Shown piece after piece: positions 631-16,675 of a DNA stretch of 23,254 bases (within the stretch, counting starts at the first letter, position 1; every line of letters starts with the position of its first letter). The stretch lies in IMG/VR virus record IMGVR_UViG_3300031660_000061, positions 1-23,254 of that record; one strand, given 5' to 3'. This DNA is from a virus. The notes below the pieces were generated by a model. That model had not been told where the DNA came from and ran no database searches. It saw only the letters and a list, made by a program, of their open reading frames with translations. The position numbers were made by a program, and so were the translations under genes.

Positions 631-662
631 CAAAGATACATTAAATAAACTTATAAACCAAA
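631..662 (-). promoter_or_regulatory. Host-type promoter for left-end small genes
   Basis: Minus strand: TTTG (662-659), 20 bp, TATCTTTG (638-631), an exact Bacteroidetes-type match. Transcription would start near 624, giving a leader of about 60 bases with a GAGGG/CCCTC hairpin before the 59 aa gene. Confidence 0.7.
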
Positions 663-878: not shown

Positions 879-909
879 CAAATATAAAACAAATAAAGTT
901 ATCCACAAA
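879..909 (-). promoter_or_regulatory. Host-type promoter of short unit
   Basis: Minus strand: TTTG (909-906), 19 bp, TATATTTG (886-879), an exact match to the Bacteroidetes TAnnTTTG -7 element with normal spacing. Start of transcription is expected near 872, about 185 bases before the terminator at 687. Confidence 0.65.
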
Positions 910-2035: not shown

Positions 2036-2109
2036 TAGTAGTATATTGTTTTAAAATTATTATTTTCTTTACCATAATATGCCATTAGTTCAATATCATT
2101 AAACCTCAT
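2035..2109 (-). CDS. 24 aa microprotein frame, putative
   Basis: ATG at 2109 overlaps the sigma-like gene's stop by 11 bases, and the TAA overlaps the next ATG as TAATG. The frame would encode MRFNDIELMAYYGKENNNFK and TIYY. Double coupling is its only support. Its true role may be to pass ribosomes from the sigma gene to the next gene rather than to make a stable protein. Confidence 0.4.
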   Translation of the reverse strand: MRFNDIELMAYYGKENNNFKTIYY

Positions 2110-2608
2110 TTATTATAATTTTTAGTTTTCTTTTTACATTATGATATGTGTTGTAAAGAGAATAATATGGTATAAGTGATTTTCGTGACAATTCTGCAAT
2201 GCTCTCTCCGCCATTTATAATCTCGAAAACTTTTCTGTCGTACCAATACATTTTTTTTAAAGCATCTTGAACTTTAATGTAAGATTTTTCAAAAGCAACT
2301 GTCTCATCACTTTCTGTGTTAGCAAAATTTAACTTGCCAACGTCATCCATAGAAATGACAATGTTATTTTTGTTTTTTCTTTTAAGGTCTATAAAAACAG
2401 AATTTAGAGTTTTGAAAATATAGTAGTAATTTATTTCTTCTCCGTTATACATAAGGTTAACGTTCACTCCTTTTAAAAGTGTCTTATGTATTTTAATATA
2501 CATTTCTTGAGTGATATCTTCTGCGGTCTCATTTGAAACCCCAAACGACTTAACAATGTCAATCCAAATTAGGTGCTTCTTCGCAATCAACTCTAATGTA
2601 TGCTTCAT
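2099..2608 (-). CDS. Sigma-70-like transcription factor
   Basis: A 169 aa protein with two sigma-like parts. Residues ~10-85 resemble region 2 (FGVSNETAEDITQEMYIKIH, then YYYIFKTLNSVFIDLKRKNK). Residues ~112-165 resemble region 4 (VQDALKKMYWYDRKVFEII, then SIAELSRKSLIPYYSLYNTY, a helix-turn-helix, and KRKLK). The size and two-domain plan fit an ECF-type sigma factor. Diverged sigma-like proteins of this sort occur in many Bacteroidetes phages. It could direct host RNA polymerase to phage promoters; the repeated 28 bp element upstream of head genes is a candidate target (inference). It starts 1 base after the ATPase stop and overlaps a 24-codon frame at its end. Confidence 0.7.
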   Translation of the reverse strand: MKHTLELIAKKHLIWIDIVKSFGVSNETAEDITQEMYIKIHKTLLKGVNVNLMYNGEEINYYYIFKTLNSVFIDLKRKNKNNIVISMDDVGKLNFANTESDETVAFEKSYIKVQDALKKMYWYDRKVFEIINGGESIAELSRKSLIPYYSLYNTYHNVKRKLKIIINEV

Positions 2609-2609
2609 T

Positions 2610-3467
2610 TTATTTTAGTGGGTCATATAGGTCTCCTACAATTATTGGTAAGCCTTTTTCATTCACTTCAAAACTAAAGGTATCGAATGCGTAACCTCTG
2701 CTTCTGCCACATCTAACTGTAACCCAATTTTTGTTAACTGTGTTTGCTTCTAAACTTATAACTGTTTCGGCTTTTTTCTCTAAGAACGAACCCAAATGTC
2801 CTGTTCCTAATTTAGTGCTTCCGAAATTTTGATGTATAACATTGATAATGTGAACATTGTATTTAGCGGACCATTCCATTAGCTTCTGTACAACTTCGTT
2901 CGATTCCTGAATGTTATTTGCATCACTACATAAATCTGCAATGCCATCAATAATTACAAGTGATGGTCTATTTATTTTCTGACTTAGGTAGTACTCTATG
3001 AACTTAATTCTCGTTTTATAATTTATTGCTCTTAAACCAAAGGTATGATAATTTTCTGAATTAACATTTTTGTCCATATCATAAACTCTTTTAAAAACCT
3101 TTTGGCAATGCCATAGACCTTGCTCTGTATCAAAATGTACTAAACTACCATCGCCCCTGTGACCTTTTATATTTCCGCCATAAATATTACTGCCTGATAA
3201 ATAGACTGAAGCTAATAGTGATATAAAAAAAGTTTTCTTAGTTTTTGGTGGGGCAGTAACGACTGATAAATTACCATAAGTTCCAATTGGTATTGGTAAT
3301 ATAGTATCGCCATTATCTGACCTTAAAACCTTTTCGCCCATTGAAAGGCAAACAGGTGGGTATTCCATTTTCTTTTTTGTGTCCACAAAGCAATCCTGTT
3401 CAATAAACTGCATCAGCATATTGTGCTCTGTTTCTTTTTCTGTAAATTCAAGTTTGTTCTGTTTCAA
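2610..3467 (-). CDS. RepA/DnaB-like AAA ATPase
   Basis: A 285 aa ATPase of the RecA-fold group used by phages and mobile elements for replication. The P-loop is degenerate but recognisable: TAPPKTKKTFF (72-79), where the usual GxxxxGK(S/T) glycines are replaced, a form I also recall in Bacteroidetes elements (KSRKT-type). Other motifs are HFDTEQG (111-117), Walker B SLVIIDGIADL (169-179) and a sensor strand IINVIHQN (207-214). It is shorter than DnaB and lacks a primase domain. The frame has no ATG at its beginning: the first start is TTG at 3467, and the first in-frame ATG is at residue 17 (3419). It lies just before the sigma-like gene. Confidence 0.75.
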   Translation of the reverse strand: MKQNKLEFTEKETEHNMLMQFIEQDCFVDTKKKMEYPPVCLSMGEKVLRSDNGDTILPIPIGTYGNLSVVTAPPKTKKTFFISLLASVYLSGSNIYGGNIKGHRGDGSLVHFDTEQGLWHCQKVFKRVYDMDKNVNSENYHTFGLRAINYKTRIKFIEYYLSQKINRPSLVIIDGIADLCSDANNIQESNEVVQKLMEWSAKYNVHIINVIHQNFGSTKLGTGHLGSFLEKKAETVISLEANTVNKNWVTVRCGRSRGYAFDTFSFEVNEKGLPIIVGDLYDPLK

Positions 3468-10945: not shown

Positions 10946-13060
10946 TTAAAATCCTTGTGGGTTATTAGGTAAAAATCCTTTATTCGGTAAATTTCTTGGT
11001 TGAATAGAAACTTGGTAAGGATTCGTAACTCTATATCCTAAAATAGCAGCCTGTCTTGTACCAATAATATCTTGTGCATTTTTAGTACTTGTTTTTGCCA
11101 ATTTACTCTTGTATGTAACTCGTCTCCACGAATGATGACAATTACCTCCGCCCTTGTATAACCATATCGAATATGTGTCAGAATTTCCTTTCGGTCCCCA
11201 TCCCTTGTTAACAGGTTCAGTACCCATTCGTATAATATCTTTTTTACGATATAATTTATTAGCCTGTTTCATTGCTCTACAAAATGTACGAGCATTATCG
11301 CCTACTTTTCGTGGACTATAATAATACCGTACTTTAAAATAATTTTCTCCTACTTTTTCATCTTGTGAAGATGGGCTGTTAGGGTAAGCACTTCCTGTAC
11401 TTACTAAATTTACAATTTTGCTTAACGTAGATAATTTATCTTTTTCTTGGTTGTTTAAATCTGTGATAATTCCATCAATGTTTTCTTCTTTTTGATAGTC
11501 GACATCTTGTTCAAAAATAGCTTCCCACTTAGTTTCGTCAATATCTTCGCCTAAAGCAATTAATTGAGCAGCAATTTCATCATCGTTTTCATTCGATTCA
11601 CTTGAGCAACATAATTTTTCTCGTGATAATGGTACACAATTAGGTACTTCTTTGCCATCTTTTGTCTTCATTCCTATCTGCTCGTAACCATCCCAACAAG
11701 GTGCTTTCAGTTCCGTATGATTTTCACAAGGCATAAAGTAAATTTCGCCCTCAATTTTCATTTCGTGAGAGCCTGAACAACCCAACTCTCTTGCTGCATT
11801 ATCTGCTTCTTCTTTTGTGTTATAAGCCTGTTGACCATCTATTGTTTGTAAAGACAGTTTTTCCATTTCAACACCTGTTTCCTCTTCAATCGTTTCTTTG
11901 TCTTGAATCTTTCTATCTACTTCTGTAAATTCTAATGGTTGTAAAGTCGTAAAGTAGAGGTTTAAGGCGATGTTATTATAAGCCAATAATACATCAAAGG
12001 AATCTATTAAAAGTTCCTGAAAAGGTCTTATAACCGTATTGTCCATCAATAATGATGATGTTTTAATTTCATCTGCATTGCTTGAAAATCCTGTACTTGT
12101 TTTTATACCTAATAAAAAAGGCGATACAACTCTATGAGCAACTTGAATCTTCGATTGTGATTCGTCAGATAAAAATTGGTATTGATTATGAGCATCACTT
12201 AATTGTACAGGTGTTATTTCTGCTTGTGATTCTTTATTGTCATTAAAAGCAAGTATAAATTTTCCTGCATTGCTTGAGCCTGAAAACTTCTGTGCTATTT
12301 TCTTTTCAATTAATTGTCTTTCTTCTTGGTTTGGAGTACCATTGTTGAAATTGATTAACATACTAGGTGCTAGACCATTAAGTATATTATTTAAGTGATA
12401 ATTGCTTACTTCTTCTTCAAGTTGAGCATACTGTAATCCACCCTGATAATCTACAGGCGAATAGTAATAAAATCCTGACTTATATGGTTTTATGTAATAA
12501 ATTTCTATGTTCTCTTTTGACATTCCAAAAGCAGGTATTCTTAAAGGCACATCGCTTCTTTTAATATTTACCCAATCTTTAAAATAGTAATATGCAGGAA
12601 TGTCTCCATCGTCATTTGCTTTTTCTGCTCTTAAAGTTTCAACAGGTAAATGCTCTATTTGAGCAATTGTCTTTCTGTCTTTTGAATATATTACTTGTAC
12701 CGCACATTGCCCCATTAATTTTAAGTCATAGCACAATTTTCTAACTACATTCTTCTTAAACAAAGAAATCATTTGTGCATACTGATTTGGTTTTCTGCTT
12801 GAATCTGTTGCATTTAAACCTTTTCCGTATATAGCTTGGCTAATTCCATTTATAGCAGCATTATTCGTTGGGCTACCATTGTACCTGTCAATTAGGTATT
12901 GAAAATAGTTATTATCTTCTCCGTATTCAATCCAATCTTCGCCATTTACTTCTTTAATCAATGGACTTGTATAAGTGCTTAAATTTACGAATCCAAATTC
13001 TGAAACCTTTGATGCTCTTTTAAATTGCCCTTTGTTATTCCTTAGTCTTTTATTTTCCAT
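10946..13060 (-). CDS. Portal protein with Cys-rich C-terminal extension
   Basis: A 704 aa protein. Residues ~40-385 have portal-like character: TNNAAINGISQAIYGKG, then AHRVVSPFLLGIKTSTGFSS, and SLLMDNTVIRPFQELLIDSF, which is typical of the portal stem and crown region. The rest is unusual. One Cys module spans about 411-447 (RELGCSGSHEMKIEGEIYF, then MPCENH) and another about 454-478 (PCWDGYEQIGMKTKDGKEV, then PNCVP). Next come an acidic linker (LGEDIDETKWEAIFEQDVDY) and a terminal domain at ~570-650 with FCRAMKQANKLYRKKDI, GWGPKGNSDTYSIWLYKGGG and NCHHSWRR. These modules also occur, in my recollection, in other Bacteroidetes phage head proteins. The portal forms the dodecameric DNA gate of the capsid. 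The gene starts 2 bases after the preceding stop. Confidence 0.75.
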   Translation of the reverse strand: MENKRLRNNKGQFKRASKVSEFGFVNLSTYTSPLIKEVNGEDWIEYGEDNNYFQYLIDRYNGSPTNNAAINGISQAIYGKGLNATDSSRKPNQYAQMISLFKKNVVRKLCYDLKLMGQCAVQVIYSKDRKTIAQIEHLPVETLRAEKANDDGDIPAYYYFKDWVNIKRSDVPLRIPAFGMSKENIEIYYIKPYKSGFYYYSPVDYQGGLQYAQLEEEVSNYHLNNILNGLAPSMLINFNNGTPNQEERQLIEKKIAQKFSGSSNAGKFILAFNDNKESQAEITPVQLSDAHNQYQFLSDESQSKIQVAHRVVSPFLLGIKTSTGFSSNADEIKTSSLLMDNTVIRPFQELLIDSFDVLLAYNNIALNLYFTTLQPLEFTEVDRKIQDKETIEEETGVEMEKLSLQTIDGQQAYNTKEEADNAARELGCSGSHEMKIEGEIYFMPCENHTELKAPCWDGYEQIGMKTKDGKEVPNCVPLSREKLCCSSESNENDDEIAAQLIALGEDIDETKWEAIFEQDVDYQKEENIDGIITDLNNQEKDKLSTLSKIVNLVSTGSAYPNSPSSQDEKVGENYFKVRYYYSPRKVGDNARTFCRAMKQANKLYRKKDIIRMGTEPVNKGWGPKGNSDTYSIWLYKGGGNCHHSWRRVTYKSKLAKTSTKNAQDIIGTRQAAILGYRVTNPYQVSIQPRNLPNKGFLPNNPQGF

Positions 13061-13062
13061 AT

Positions 13063-13497
13063 TTATGGTACTGTATAAGTATTATCAAATCCTTTGTACT
13101 CTGTAAATTGACCTTTGTTTAATTGGTAATGGTCATTGTCATTTAATTGGTCTATATCTTGGTCTGTACAAAATACTTTATCTCTGTAAATATCTTCTTT
13201 AAAGCCTGAATCTACTTGCCATAAAACATCGTATAAATTCCAAAAACTATTGTTTGTATTCCAAAAATCGTAATCAATGTACAAATGTATGTCAAAAAAA
13301 TGACCTTCAACCAAAACAGGGTTAAACACATTGTTAAAAGTCAAGTAGTTACCTACCGTTGTGCCTGATTTATTTTGGTATAATTTAGTGATATTTGTAC
13401 TGTCATCTCTAATAGACATTGTGAAATTACTGTCATCATACTGTCTAGGTATAATTGAGAGTGTTTGAGCAAGTGTAGATGTAGTTAGTATAATCAT
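13063..13497 (-). CDS. 144 aa structural protein of flavobacterial phages
   Basis: A beta-rich 144 aa protein with the start MIILTTSTLAQTLSIIPRQY and the segments FTMSIRDDSTNITKLYQNK, FNPVLVEGHFFDIHLYI and DIYRDKVFCTDQDIDQLN. I associate this combination with a small protein common in flavobacterial phage structural operons, of unknown exact function. An aromatic, Asn-rich insert (DFWNTNNSFWNLYDVLWQ) lies near residue 80. The first residues are hydrophobic but lack a clear signal peptidase site. The gene begins after a terminator and copy 3 of the conserved element, and ends 2 bases before the portal ATG, so it probably leads a portal transcript. Confidence 0.6.
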   Translation of the reverse strand: MIILTTSTLAQTLSIIPRQYDDSNFTMSIRDDSTNITKLYQNKSGTTVGNYLTFNNVFNPVLVEGHFFDIHLYIDYDFWNTNNSFWNLYDVLWQVDSGFKEDIYRDKVFCTDQDIDQLNDNDHYQLNKGQFTEYKGFDNTYTVP

Positions 13498-13503
13498 ATT
13501 ATC

Positions 13504-13531
13504 TATATAACGTAATAATTTTACATATTTG
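13504..13531 (-). promoter_or_regulatory. 28 bp conserved upstream element, copy 3
   Basis: Minus strand: CAAATATGT (13531-13523), 9 bp spacer, ACGTTATATA (13513-13504), then 6 bases to the ATG of the 144 aa gene. The proximal half-site is identical to the other two copies. The distal half keeps CAAAT and then diverges. Its place directly after a terminator fits a re-initiation point for transcription. Confidence 0.6.
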
Positions 13532-13546
13532 TAAAAGTAAATTTAC

Positions 13547-13574
13547 AAAAAAAAACCACCCTATAAAAGAGTGG
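13547..13574 (-). terminator. Intrinsic terminator after probable tail tube gene
   Basis: Minus strand: CCACTC / GGGTGG stem of 6 bp (one G-U pair), a 7-base A/T loop, then nine T's. It sits about 30 bases after the stop codon of the 177 aa gene and just upstream of copy 3 of the conserved element. Confidence 0.8.
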
Positions 13575-13602
13575 CTAATTTACTAACTAAATAAAGGTAT
13601 TT

Positions 13603-14136
13603 TTATACTCCTGTTGGTGCAATTTGTAATGCTGAAGCAGTTGGAGTTGCATCTAAGAAATAAGGTGCAGTTTCTTCCATTCCCTCGAACGTCAAAGTAA
13701 ATCCACTTAAGTCTCCTGCTGCTGCTCCTGTAACAACTGTTCCACCTGTAGCTTCCATTCCGTTTTCAAATCCACAAAGGAAACTGTTTCCGTAATAGTC
13801 AACCACTACAATGTAAGGTCTAGCTACTGCAAGTATTTGCAATTCTGCTTGAGTCTTAGCATCTAAATAAGTTAATGTTAAATTTAAAGTTTGAGTGTAA
13901 AAAGTAGTTCCATTCTCTCTGCTACTTGTTACAGTAGTTTCTAAAGATGAATTGCCTTTTACATCGTATTCATACCAAACAGGTGCAGCGCTTCCGTTTG
14001 TGATTGTTGCTTCTTTACTTGTTGAATCTACTGCAACACTTGCAATTGTTCCAAAGTCTGCAAATAATACGGTTTTAATTCCGCCAAATGCTGATTTACA
14101 AGGTACTTTTCTACCTGTGTTTAATGTGCACGCCAT
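13603..14136 (-). CDS. Probable major tail (tube) protein
   Basis: A 177 aa beta-rich protein starting MACTLNTGRKVPCKSAFGGI, a start I recognise from structural proteins beside the capsid gene in flavobacterial phages. The central part (SLETTVTSSRENGTTFYTQT, LNLTLTYLDAKTQAELQIL) and the end (FTLTFEGMEETAPYFLD) read as long beta strands, fitting a tail tube fold. Size, high expression context (just after the capsid gene and bounded by its own strong terminator) and composition make a tail tube protein most likely. A head decoration protein is the alternative. Cysteines lie at positions 3 and 13 and near the end of the middle region (FLCGFENG). Confidence 0.55.
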   Translation of the reverse strand: MACTLNTGRKVPCKSAFGGIKTVLFADFGTIASVAVDSTSKEATITNGSAAPVWYEYDVKGNSSLETTVTSSRENGTTFYTQTLNLTLTYLDAKTQAELQILAVARPYIVVVDYYGNSFLCGFENGMEATGGTVVTGAAAGDLSGFTLTFEGMEETAPYFLDATPTASALQIAPTGV

Positions 14137-14151
14137 ATTTTTTATTGTTTT

Positions 14152-14185
14152 AAAAAAAAAGGGTAAGTAGATAAACTACCTACCC
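14152..14185 (-). terminator. Strong intrinsic terminator after capsid gene
   Basis: On the minus strand, a 10 bp stem (GGGTAGGTAG / CTACTTACCC, one G-U pair) with a 5-base loop is followed by nine T's. It lies between the capsid stop codon and the next gene. With only about 15 bases between the T tract and the next ATG, there is little room for a new promoter, so the downstream genes probably depend on read-through. Confidence 0.85.
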
Positions 14186-14210
14186 TCGTTTTATTGATTA
14201 ATTTAATTGA

Positions 14211-15191
14211 TTATGCGTAAGTAACGATATCTGAAGCAACTCCAAATTGTACACTTGAGGTAAATCTCATTACCATACGTACATTGTTTGAAGCATCAAG
14301 GTCAGCCATATCCAAAACTTTTACAGTATTTGTATCATTCAACAAGCCTGTACCGAAATAAAGGTTTGAAGTTCTTGCAGCAATCATATCGTCATCAACT
14401 TGTCCCTGTGCTACGAACACTTTAACACCATTAATAGTTAAACTTCCGTTATTCCACCATTGCGTACCCATACTTTGAACACCATTTGCGCCAAGTCCGT
14501 TAGCAGCGAAGCCACCTAATGCTTGAACATACAATTTAGCAGCTTTAGAACTTACGTATAAGTATAAATCTTCTTTACCATATAGTGAAGATGGAATTGC
14601 AGCAACAACTTTGCTCATTTCTACAATAATATTAGCAGCATCTAATCCACCTGCAACCTTAGCAATCTGTTGAGCAGCAGGAATGTCCCCTGCAGCAGCA
14701 GAAGCAGCAATTAACTTGTTAAATCCATCAAATGAATTATTAGTTGCAGCAGCAGTATCTCCTTGCCAAATGTTAAATTCAGTATTTTGTGCAACTTCAG
14801 CAGCAACGTGTGCTATCATAAAGTCAGAAAATTTAGGAGGTAAAGTTTGACCTAAACCGAATCCCATTGATTGTGATTCCCAATCGCTTACGAAATCATA
14901 TTTACATAATTGTAAGTTAACTTGTAATTCAACAGGTTGAATAATTCTCTCTGTTAAAGTAACTGAAGAGTTTGGTGCAAAATCACATCCTGCAGCAGTA
15001 ACTAAAGCCCCTGTTGCTAATTTTTTAATTACTTCTTTAAAAGAAATGTTTGCTTTTACTGTTAAGCCACCATCGTCAATAGTTGATGCAGATAATAATG
15101 CAGCAGCGATATATTCGCCTGCAAATTGTCCTGCATAAGTCGTTGTAATGTTAGTAGCAGTAGCTAATTGTAGTTTGTCTAATTTACTCAT
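14211..15191 (-). CDS. Major capsid protein (HK97-fold type)
   Basis: A 326 aa protein of the length usual for HK97-type capsid proteins without a long delta domain. Features include an Ala/Gly-rich composition, an N-terminal TYAGQFAGEYIAAAL segment, and IIQPVELQVNLQLCKYDFVS, which looks like the E-loop/P-domain strand region. There is also WESQSMGFGLGQTLPPKFSD, a long P-domain helix (FMIAHVAAEVAQNTEFNIWQ), and a C-terminal A-domain (GVKVFVAQGQVDDDMIAART, ending VMRFTSSVQFGVASDIV). I recognise this pattern from flavobacterial phage capsids. A strong terminator follows immediately, and the leader is A/T-only. Two cysteines (in GCDF and LCKYDF) are present. Confidence 0.8.
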   Translation of the reverse strand: MSKLDKLQLATATNITTTYAGQFAGEYIAAALLSASTIDDGGLTVKANISFKEVIKKLATGALVTAAGCDFAPNSSVTLTERIIQPVELQVNLQLCKYDFVSDWESQSMGFGLGQTLPPKFSDFMIAHVAAEVAQNTEFNIWQGDTAAATNNSFDGFNKLIAASAAAGDIPAAQQIAKVAGGLDAANIIVEMSKVVAAIPSSLYGKEDLYLYVSSKAAKLYVQALGGFAANGLGANGVQSMGTQWWNNGSLTINGVKVFVAQGQVDDDMIAARTSNLYFGTGLLNDTNTVKVLDMADLDASNNVRMVMRFTSSVQFGVASDIVTYA

Positions 15192-15202
15192 TTTATTGTT
15201 TT

Positions 15203-15844
15203 TTATTTATTTAATCTATTTAATACCCTGTCCATTGCTGAACTTCCAAATTTATTTTTTATAAACTCGTGCTTTTTTACAGTTGTCCCAACAGTTTCAG
15301 GATTGTGTTTTATTGGTTTACTTGATGCTTCAGAAAGTTCTTCTTTTGAAAATTCTTCTTTTACAGTTCTCGATTTCAAAACATTGCTTTTTTCTTCGCT
15401 CATTTCTTCCTCTTCAACGTCTTCCATTTTAGCTTCCTTATCGCCTTTTAAATCAGCAATAGCATCTTCTAAATTTTGAATTCGTTTCTCCATTCCTCGC
15501 CAATCAGCAACATCTGCTTCGCCATCTTCTGCCATCTCTTTATCTTCTTGTTCTAAGTCAGAAGTAATTTCTTCGCCCTCTTCGTCTTCCTTTGCAGGAA
15601 CATCGTCAGCAACATCTCTAACGTCAGCAATTAGTCCCTCTTCAGAAACTACAATTAATCTACCATCTTCTAGTAAATATTCGCCAACAGGCATTGCTAC
15701 TTTTTCGTCATCTGTAACGATAAAAATTTCAGAGTCTTTTTCAAATGAGTCAGCCGATACGACTGTTCCATTTTCTAACTTCATTTCTTCAAGCTTAACC
15801 TGAATGTTTAGAAGTTCTTTAATTTGATTTAGTTTACTTTTCAT
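15203..15844 (-). CDS. Acidic scaffold-like head assembly protein
   Basis: A 213 aa, very acidic protein. Residues ~18-75 form a beta domain (EEMKLENGTVVSADSFEKDS, IFIVTDDEKVAMPVGEYLLE, DGRLIVVSEEGLIADVRDV). This domain I recognise from proteins beside the major capsid gene in Bacteroidetes phages. Residues ~80-155 are a Glu/Asp-rich linker and a coiled coil (MEKRIQNLEDAIADLKGDKE). The C-terminus turns basic (HEFIKNKFGSSAMDRVLNRL). The acidic coiled coil, basic tail and place between prohead protease and capsid fit a scaffolding protein. A head decoration role is the alternative. It is preceded by copy 2 of the conserved element and lies 11 bp before the capsid gene. Confidence 0.6.
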   Translation of the reverse strand: MKSKLNQIKELLNIQVKLEEMKLENGTVVSADSFEKDSEIFIVTDDEKVAMPVGEYLLEDGRLIVVSEEGLIADVRDVADDVPAKEDEEGEEITSDLEQEDKEMAEDGEADVADWRGMEKRIQNLEDAIADLKGDKEAKMEDVEEEEMSEEKSNVLKSRTVKEEFSKEELSEASSKPIKHNPETVGTTVKKHEFIKNKFGSSAMDRVLNRLNK

Positions 15845-15850
15845 ATTTAT

Positions 15851-15878
15851 TATATAACGTGGTTTAAATTAAAATTTG
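15851..15878 (-). promoter_or_regulatory. 28 bp conserved upstream element, copy 2
   Basis: Minus strand: CAAATTTTA (15878-15870), 9 bp spacer, ACGTTATATA (15860-15851), then 6 bases to the ATG of the scaffold-like gene. Both half-sites are identical to copy 1, while the spacer and flanks differ, so selection on the half-sites is likely. Confidence 0.6.
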
Positions 15879-15890
15879 CATTTTCGATTG

Positions 15891-16058
15891 TTATTCGCTT
15901 ACCGTTCCTGTGATCACTCCAATGCCTTGCGCTCTCATTGAGCCATCGCAACATTCTATTGAATACGTATTTTTATCCCAACATAAACAAGCTCTGTTAC
16001 TGCCTTTAGGCGAGGTTCTTGAGCCTATATAAATATTGTCCTCTGTATTATTTGACAT
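15891..16058 (-). CDS. 55 aa Cys-rich CDGS protein
   Basis: The start ATG at 16058 overlaps the protease stop (ATGTCAAATAA), and the frame ends with TAA at 15891. The product is MSNNTEDNIYIGSRTSPKG followed by SNRACLCWDKNTYSIECCDG and SMRAQGIGVITGTVSE. The four cysteines in C-x-C...C-C and the signature CCDGS-x-(R/Q)AQGIG recall small proteins I know from Bacteroidetes phages, whose function has not been assigned. The four Cys could bind one metal ion or form disulfides. Placement between protease and scaffold suggests a virion or head-assembly role (inference). The gene is too short for most gene finders. Confidence 0.7.
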   Translation of the reverse strand: MSNNTEDNIYIGSRTSPKGSNRACLCWDKNTYSIECCDGSMRAQGIGVITGTVSE

Positions 16059-16644
16059 CTGTTAGAATTTTTTTGATTTCATTTAATGTAATTTCTTCAG
16101 AATACTCTTCTTTTATAGATTCTTTTGGCGATTCTATTTTATCAGCAAAGTAACCCTCAATACTGAAGCCTTTTACTTTTCCTGTTTTTACGTAATCATT
16201 CCAAACATCTTCGTTTTGAACTTTTACCGAACCCATCCAAGTACCAACAGGTACGTCCAAACCATATAAAGCAGTTTTGTCTTTTTCCTTATTTTCTACA
16301 ATCCAACTTTCAACCAACGTTAAACCGTTTAAAGATTTTTCGTGTTCTAATGTGGTCTGTGATTGATTTCCGTTTTTAAGATATAATTGCGAAGCCTTTA
16401 CAACTGTTTCTTTTGAAAAGAAAATATAGTAATCGCCCTCGTCTCCTTTTCTGTAAATAGGTTTGTTAGGAATTAACAATGCACCCATCAATAAACGTTT
16501 CTCTTTATTTATTTCAGCAAGTTTAATTTCCTGATTTTTTAGAGCAATAAAGTCAGATTCAATCGCAGGGCTTTCAACTATTGAAATCGCTTCAATTCCT
16601 GCATCTTCTTGTTCTTCATCTAATATTAGTTCGATTATTCTCAT
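16048..16644 (-). CDS. XkdF-like prohead serine protease
   Basis: A 198 aa protein resembling the XkdF group of prohead proteases (S78-type fold), which trim scaffold and capsid proteins during head maturation. The start RIIELILDEEQEDAGIEAIS and the segment SIVESPAIESDFIAL are typical. A candidate catalytic His is H101 in TTLEHEKSL, and the candidate Ser is S161 in KGFSIEGYF, with LYGLDVPVGTWMGSVKV between them. It comes right before the scaffold-like and capsid genes, as expected for a maturation protease. The C-terminus is charged (KEEYSEEITLNEIKKI). It is preceded by copy 1 of the conserved element and overlaps the next small gene by 11 bases. Confidence 0.8.
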   Translation of the reverse strand: MRIIELILDEEQEDAGIEAISIVESPAIESDFIALKNQEIKLAEINKEKRLLMGALLIPNKPIYRKGDEGDYYIFFSKETVVKASQLYLKNGNQSQTTLEHEKSLNGLTLVESWIVENKEKDKTALYGLDVPVGTWMGSVKVQNEDVWNDYVKTGKVKGFSIEGYFADKIESPKESIKEEYSEEITLNEIKKILTDVK

Positions 16645-16647
16645 AAT

Positions 16648-16675
16648 TATATAACGTATTAATTTTTAAAATTTG
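16648..16675 (-). promoter_or_regulatory. 28 bp conserved upstream element, copy 1
   Basis: Read on the minus strand: CAAATTTTA (16675-16667), a 9 bp spacer, then ACGTTATATA (16657-16648). The ATG of the protease gene follows after 3 bases. The element fills almost the whole 38 bp gap between tape measure and protease. The same two half-sites with the same 9 bp spacer occur at 15851-15878 and 13504-13531. It may be a phage-specific promoter or a translation signal. It does not match the host TAnnTTTG type. Confidence 0.6.

Follow-up and report, generated by a model that had tools for sequence, protein, structure and literature searches.

Three copies of a 28 bp two-part element lie just upstream of head genes in the phage DNA analysed here, which raises the question of what the element does and which protein would read it. 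The window, i.e. the whole stretch under study, comprises the 23,254 bases of one IMG/VR record (G000) from a tailed phage with nearly all of its genes on the minus strand. Measured against related phages, which have about 32 kb, it is a genome fragment. BLASTn searches of the region against cultured phages gave no match. With high confidence we regard the three elements as late promoters, which would be read by the host core RNA polymerase (RNAP) carrying a small ECF-type sigma factor of the phage's own.

The two-part element in the window

The element consists of CAAA, a spacer of 14 nt and ACGTTATATA. The first-pass annotation had described three 28 bp copies situated 3, 6 and 6 bases from an ATG, and all three were found to be exact on the coding (minus) strand (Table 1). 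The ATGs that follow copies 1, 2 and 3 open ORFs of 198, 213 and 144 amino acids, respectively. The downstream half, reported to be unique on the coding strand, is unique in a wider sense, as outside the three elements ACGTTATATA does not occur exactly anywhere in the full 23,254-base record, whichever strand is read. A search for both halves together that allowed 3 mismatches at most returned exactly three matches, namely the three copies, compared with a mean of 0.25 in 100 shuffled sequences, none of which reached 3. Under an iid model, the chance expectation for exact CAAA-N14-ACGTTATATA on one strand of the window is 0.0007.

The TAnnTTTG box of the host primary promoter is absent from all three element sequences, as the annotation had also noted. 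Scanning for the host-type pattern TTG-N19/20-TAnnTTTG gave two tentative candidates in the early region, TTG-N20-TATCTTTG and TTG-N19-TATATTTG, and matches to E. coli-type sigma-70 promoters occurred only at the level of shuffled sequence.

Both the protease and the scaffold-like gene match phrog_24921, which is the protease-scaffold fusion of Nonlabens phage P12024S; the P12024S relative of the probable capsid protein gave a weak match to the major head protein phrog_10 (E=6e-4). The strong intrinsic terminator behind the major capsid gene closes the transcription unit or units starting at copies 1 and 2, neither of which has a terminator in front, and copy 3 directly follows a further intrinsic terminator.

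Table 1. Coordinates of the elements, genes and terminators in the window
Feature	Position	Strand	Evidence and remarks
Proposed late promoter, copy 1	16648..16675	-	-35-like CAAA 16672-16675, 14-nt spacer, -10-like ACGTTATATA 16648-16657; protease ATG 3 nt on
Proposed late promoter, copy 2	15851..15878	-	exact match; 6 nt before ATG of 213-aa scaffold-like gene
Proposed late promoter, copy 3	13504..13531	-	exact match; 6 nt before ATG of 144-aa gene; directly after intrinsic terminator
Head maturation protease, 198 aa, Peptidase_S78_2 / XkdF type	16048..16644	-	Pfam PF14550 E=2e-14; phrog_24921, phrog_3017; first gene after copy 1
Scaffold-like gene, 213 aa	15203..15844	-	matches phrog_24921 positions 203-277; after copy 2
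Probable major capsid protein	14211..15191	-	phrog_11320; no element of its own
Strong intrinsic terminator after major capsid gene	14159..14187	-	12-bp stem and T-tract; -18.5 kcal/mol, z -5.4
Intrinsic terminator	13554..13576	-	9-bp stem, then T-tract; found by terminator scan, RNA fold z -2.2; copy 3 follows after about 22 nt
144-aa gene	13063..13497	-	after copy 3; portal gene next; homologues in 38/40 contigs
Portal gene	10946..13060	-	phrog_33693
Predicted ECF-like sigma factor, 169 aa, proposed reader of the element	2099..2608	-	family HMM E=6e-62; AF2; Foldseek
Host-type promoter candidate, TTG-N19-TATATTTG, tentative	879..908	-	early region; pattern match in non-coding stretch only
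Host-type promoter candidate, TTG-N20-TATCTTTG, tentative	631..661	-	early region; pattern match in non-coding stretch only

Conservation of the element and its surroundings in related phages

Relatives were gathered by three routes, namely by capsid/protease similarity, by the motif and by the sigma factor. A motif search in related phages had been named beforehand as one check of the promoter suggestion, and it revealed the element upstream of the same late genes in hundreds of related uncultured viral contigs, as well as a variant of it in the cultured P12024S. Among the relatives obtained by capsid and protease searches, 238 copies of ACGTTATATA were on the coding strand vs 3 on the opposite strand. 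Over 314 unique sites the conserved positions, counted from the first A, are T(-20), CAAA at -18 to -15 (82, 96, 99 and 98 %), T(-5) and ACGTTATATA. The spacer sequence is free, and in most cases an ATG follows after 3-5 nt. The distance from CAAA to CGTT is fixed, 110 of 142 unique sites sharing a single spacing of 19 nt from C to C. In line with the earlier description, spacers differ in sequence while half-sites are kept; within the upstream box of nine bases, only CAAA is conserved and the rest varies. In a wider set of sites the downstream core is CGTTA(TATA), the first A of which is lost in some lineages. A similar pattern with a spacer of 15 instead of 13 after AAAW, which serves as a chance control only, gave 80 scattered matches across all phyla.

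In long contigs the element was found at the protease gene (39/40), the scaffold-like gene (37/40), the 144-aa gene (35/38) and a 216-aa gene located outside the window (34/39), and near an 88-aa gene in many of the 40. A few genes in divergent phages lack it, such as the protease gene of G038. The -35 consensus reads TAAA at the 216-aa gene and CAAA elsewhere, which differs from the usual AAC motif of ECF promoters; the -10 box is of the CGT type found in ECF-type promoters, and CGTTA is kept across the phage group and P12024S. Each genome carries the element at about 3-6 genes, the capsid and portal genes not being among them. It invariably points to the gene it precedes, with the ATG nearby, and copies occur only where late genes start. 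A phage DNA-binding regulator, or a packaging or recombination protein, might likewise use a repeated two-part site as its operator, but the halves of the element are neither inverted nor direct repeats of each other, and this orientation and placement make such a role most improbable.

At two of these genes the element is preceded by a T-tract that stops about 15 nt short of CAAA, at 31/34 sites of the 216-aa gene and 33/35 of the 144-aa gene, compared with 52/942 control ORFs. The element cannot act as a leader signal in a transcript that has already ended at such a terminator, and it therefore more likely starts the next unit. This bears on the alternatives named in the first-pass annotation, a translation enhancer or a processing site, against which the evidence favours a promoter. 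An enhancer of translation initiation in the 5' leader of longer mRNAs would account for an ATG that is always near, in flavobacteria that have no Shine-Dalgarno sequences and use an A-rich upstream context (PMC6847099). It is nevertheless very unlikely, considering that only about 3-6 genes per genome are marked and the capsid and portal genes are excluded, that terminators end the upstream transcript just before the element at two genes, and that the CAAA half is situated further up, at fixed spacing across a free spacer. Furthermore, the A-rich context at -11 to -14 of other genes is absent from the element-bearing genes, in part by construction, the -10 box being located at just these positions. 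A site of RNA processing, or an RNA element with structure, would be consistent with sequence conservation near the start of translated regions; its probability appears minimal, since no RNA structure was found at copies 1 and 2 (fold z 1.8 and 0.0), at two sites the preceding terminators mean that hardly any RNA remains for processing, and the concerted change with a sigma helix described below would not be expected of it.

A predicted ECF-type sigma factor and its co-variation with the element

The proposed reader of the element is a 169-aa protein encoded in the window. A family model was built from six ORFs of 160-180 aa with weak Sigma70_r2 matches in relatives, and with this model a homologue was found in 39 of 40 long contigs, the window included. 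The one contig without it (G022) is a fragment that ends before the region in question, and the near-identical G043 has the gene beyond the break; in G021 the match is short and broken by a run of N. Capsid/protease similarity supplied ten contigs for full reading (G001-G009, G030); every one of them has both the sigma homologue and the element, and so have nearly all contigs from the three search routes. A phage sigma homologue and the same element before several late genes are hence present in one genome.

Members of the family are 159-180 aa long and show the predicted two-domain-plus-linker architecture of ECF (group 4) factors, which have about 160-200 aa and contain no domains other than sigma-2 and sigma-4. 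Sigma70_r2 was the Pfam family most often matched (11/20 members at E<=0.1), the best score of 19.8 bits staying below the curated cut-off of 24. Sigma70_r4_2 gave no match in 31 contigs, the corresponding region giving weak generic HTH matches instead. One family member matched the sigma factor family phrog_1740 (E=5e-6). In the AlphaFold2 model of the window protein (pLDDT 84), helical domains at residues 1-80 and 105-167 are joined by a low-confidence linker (81-104). A Foldseek search of the PDB with this model returned ECF sigma factors at ranks 1-14 (probability about 1.0, E 5e-4 to 1e-2), with SigL, SigE, SigH, AlgU and E. coli sigmaE among the top matches, and the named viral structure matches include 'Sigma70-ECF' entries. 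Whole-chain TM-scores are low (0.3-0.55 overall, 0.3-0.4 in this PDB search), the domain packing being uncertain; single region domains reached 0.53-0.70 by target length, the best fit being to 3hug (TMt 0.70). Taken together, profile matches and predicted fold point to a divergent two-domain ECF-type sigma factor that has been overlooked until now.

No match to the window sigma was obtained by tblastn against cultured phages. Among 50,697 phage records a sigma of this family was found only in P12024S and P12024L (JQ823122, JQ823123). In P12024S, which was reached through its capsid match, it is gene 33, annotated as 'containing Sigma-70 region 2', and the family HMM matched it with E=4e-12. 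The same phage has six ACAAA-N12-14-CGTTA-ATG sites on the coding strand and none on the other, where 0.04 would be expected, and a seventh CGTTA site with a weaker -35 precedes the protease-scaffold gene. At each of the seven start codons (179, 3031, 5412, 21280, 23961, 25201 and 26802), the first base of CGTTA lies 11-12 nt upstream, and the sites include those of the protease gene, the homologue of the 144-aa gene and a gene near the terminase. P12024S thus shares the sigma homologue and the CGTTA elements before start codons with the phages studied here; it differs in a capsid protein of 24 % identity, a core that is mostly CGTTAAT, spacers shorter by 1-2 nt and the fusion of protease and scaffold. 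We found no description of the P12024S promoters; the sigma gene is covered by its annotation only. Because of the relationship to P12024S, the host is probably a marine flavobacterium.

Alternatively, an ECF sigma of the host could recognise the promoters, or its primary sigma could do so with the help of a phage activator, the phage sigma homologue then acting elsewhere. Flavobacteria carry several ECF sigmas, one with a regulon marked by a CGT -10 box (PMC9723704), and the phage sigma profile resembles host ECF sigma genes and picks them up in searches. Against this, the element pattern gave 10 matches in 301 Flavobacteriaceae genomes, fewer than the reversed control and thus at chance level, and the TAnnTTTG box is missing at the elements. 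Moreover, element and phage sigma co-occur throughout, and changes in the promoters track the sigma. We therefore consider a host reader improbable. A search of 101 Flavobacteriaceae genomes at E<=1e-8, run without a positive control, detected the phage sigma in none of them as an integrated copy. A T7-type RNAP gene (PF00940) was not matched in 20 phage records, nor in the control genomes, and pattern scans identified no promoter for the sigma gene itself.

The changes in question are concerted within genomes. In G013 and G021 the spacer is 1 nt shorter at all four sites, and in G030 GTAAATA replaces the CAAA -35 at all three sites; the data for G030-like promoters come from one contig with three sites and one further contig with one site. 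In the G030 clade the sigma-4 helix reads YASLVRTY, where almost every other sequence has YYSLYNTY or something very similar. In several genomes the A before CGTT is replaced at all or most sites (protease vs 144-aa gene, Fisher p 2.5e-6, uncorrected for ancestry). Among 31 genomes, promoter distance follows sigma distance when capsid and portal distance is given (partial Mantel r=0.36, p=0.004), with the qualification that some shared ancestry is left in by the permutation, which does not model the tree in full. The ECF-type promoter suggested by the first-pass annotation has thereby gained in substance: the sigma gene, the terminator T-tracts, the fixed spacing with concerted change of the half-sites and the placement at the same genes in relatives all favour it.

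Proposed late transcription and comparison with known systems

Based on these sequence features, the early region would be transcribed by the host primary sigma, possibly from the two tentative candidates at 631-661 and 879-908. Once made, the phage sigma would take over the core RNAP and fire the late promoters, its region 4 binding the CAAA (-35) box and its region 2 opening the CGTTA(TATA) (-10) box; very probably, it is this small sigma that recognises the element and switches the head genes on late in infection. From the -10 core to the first transcribed base there would be about 6-9 nt, which puts the start at the ATG or immediately in front of it. mRNAs starting there would be nearly leaderless, as the first-pass annotation had also suggested, and from this geometry the late mRNAs of the protease, scaffold/capsid and 144-aa/portal units probably are. 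Such messages would be unusual in flavobacteria, where F. psychrophilum has 5.5 % leaderless mRNAs (PMC9723704) and F. johnsoniae has leaders of >10 nt for 87 % and of 10 nt or less for 13 % (PMC6847099).

Phage sigma factors with late promoters of their own are already known, two of them being gp36 of phiEco32 and gp47 of phage 7-11 (PMC8948821). The mapped start sites of both lie 6-9 nt past the -10 core. The late sigma of phage 7-11, SaPh711_gp47, reads bipartite promoters of the form GTAAtg-(16)-aCTA. As in the scheme proposed here, a phage sigma acts with the host core RNAP on several bipartite late-gene promoters, and from one related phage to another the sigma has diverged along with its promoters. 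The host of 7-11 belongs to another phylum, its motif is different, and a position next to the ATG is not reported in the text consulted. According to the same source, phiEco32 gp36 is likewise dedicated to a set of phage genes, middle and late ones, with starts 6-8 bp downstream of a single-element promoter, tAATGTAtA. It has no recognisable region 4 and its promoters have no -35, whereas both halves are conserved here and a region-4-like domain is predicted. On the host side, the CGT -10 box marks ECF promoters in F. psychrophilum; the SM6 promoters of this species, which were compared by their -10 box only, precede chromosomal genes that include components of type IX secretion (PMC9723704).

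To our knowledge, little is known about gene timing in Bacteroidetes phages. A full-text literature search found no description of their late promoters, nor any publication on the element or the promoter, within open-access literature and outside most subscription journals; the letters of ACGTTATATA appeared in unrelated papers only. New in the present case are the phage group, the divergent sigma family, the bipartite CAAA/CGTTA promoter at the ATG and the way in which this promoter co-varies with the sigma. For the group as a whole, which is large, probably flavobacterial and almost wholly uncultured, we lean towards a general scheme in which late genes are expressed from promoters for an ECF sigma that directly adjoin the start codon, head mRNAs are leaderless, and sigma and promoters have co-diverged into several specificity variants that differ in -35 box, spacer length and -10 edge. 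If so, head proteins would be made from leaderless mRNAs in organisms where these are rare, and leaderless translation during infection would become directly testable. A phage group that is represented by hundreds of contigs, with P12024S as a cultured relative, now has a concrete sigma/promoter pair proposed for it, and the concerted promoter changes, together with the matching change in the sigma-4 helix, constitute a natural data set for ECF sigma specificity.

Variation in the putative sigma-4 helix and the proposed late promoters

One clade (L478/L479 of G030, together with L516-L520) carries a sigma-4 recognition helix rewritten to YASLVRTY, and the -35 boxes of the same clade read GTAAATA. 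Judged from these sequences, the combination of altered helix and altered boxes would represent a natural specificity variant. A difference in spacing was observed in two other related contigs, G013 (L512/L513) and G021 (L289/L290), where every one of the four late promoters has lost one base from the -35 to -10 spacer length seen in the other members of the group.

Organization of the protease and scaffold-like genes

In the Nonlabens phage P12024S, protease and scaffold-like protein form a single 349-aa gene (phrog_24921; L595 179-1228), whereas in the window group they are two genes, separated by a small ORF and a late promoter. In the window a small Cys-containing ORF begins within the last part of the protease gene, which it overlaps, and occupies the gap preceding promoter copy 2; relatives have a resembling sequence at the equivalent position.

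Other neighboring genes

The start of the sigma gene adjoins the stop of an AAA_25-type ATPase gene, and in the relative L395 sigma is likewise preceded by a similar ATPase gene. The portal protein gave a DUF3721 match (2.5e-11) past its portal domain.

Coordinates of the features in the window
Feature	Position	Strand	Remark
AAA_25-type ATPase gene	2610-3467	-	directly upstream of sigma gene
Portal protein	10946-13060	-	portal domain; DUF3721 match in C-terminal half
Protease and scaffold-like genes	15203-16644	-	
Small Cys-containing ORF	15890-16060	-	reads MSNNTEDNIYIGSRTSPKGSNRACLCWDKNTYSIECC...
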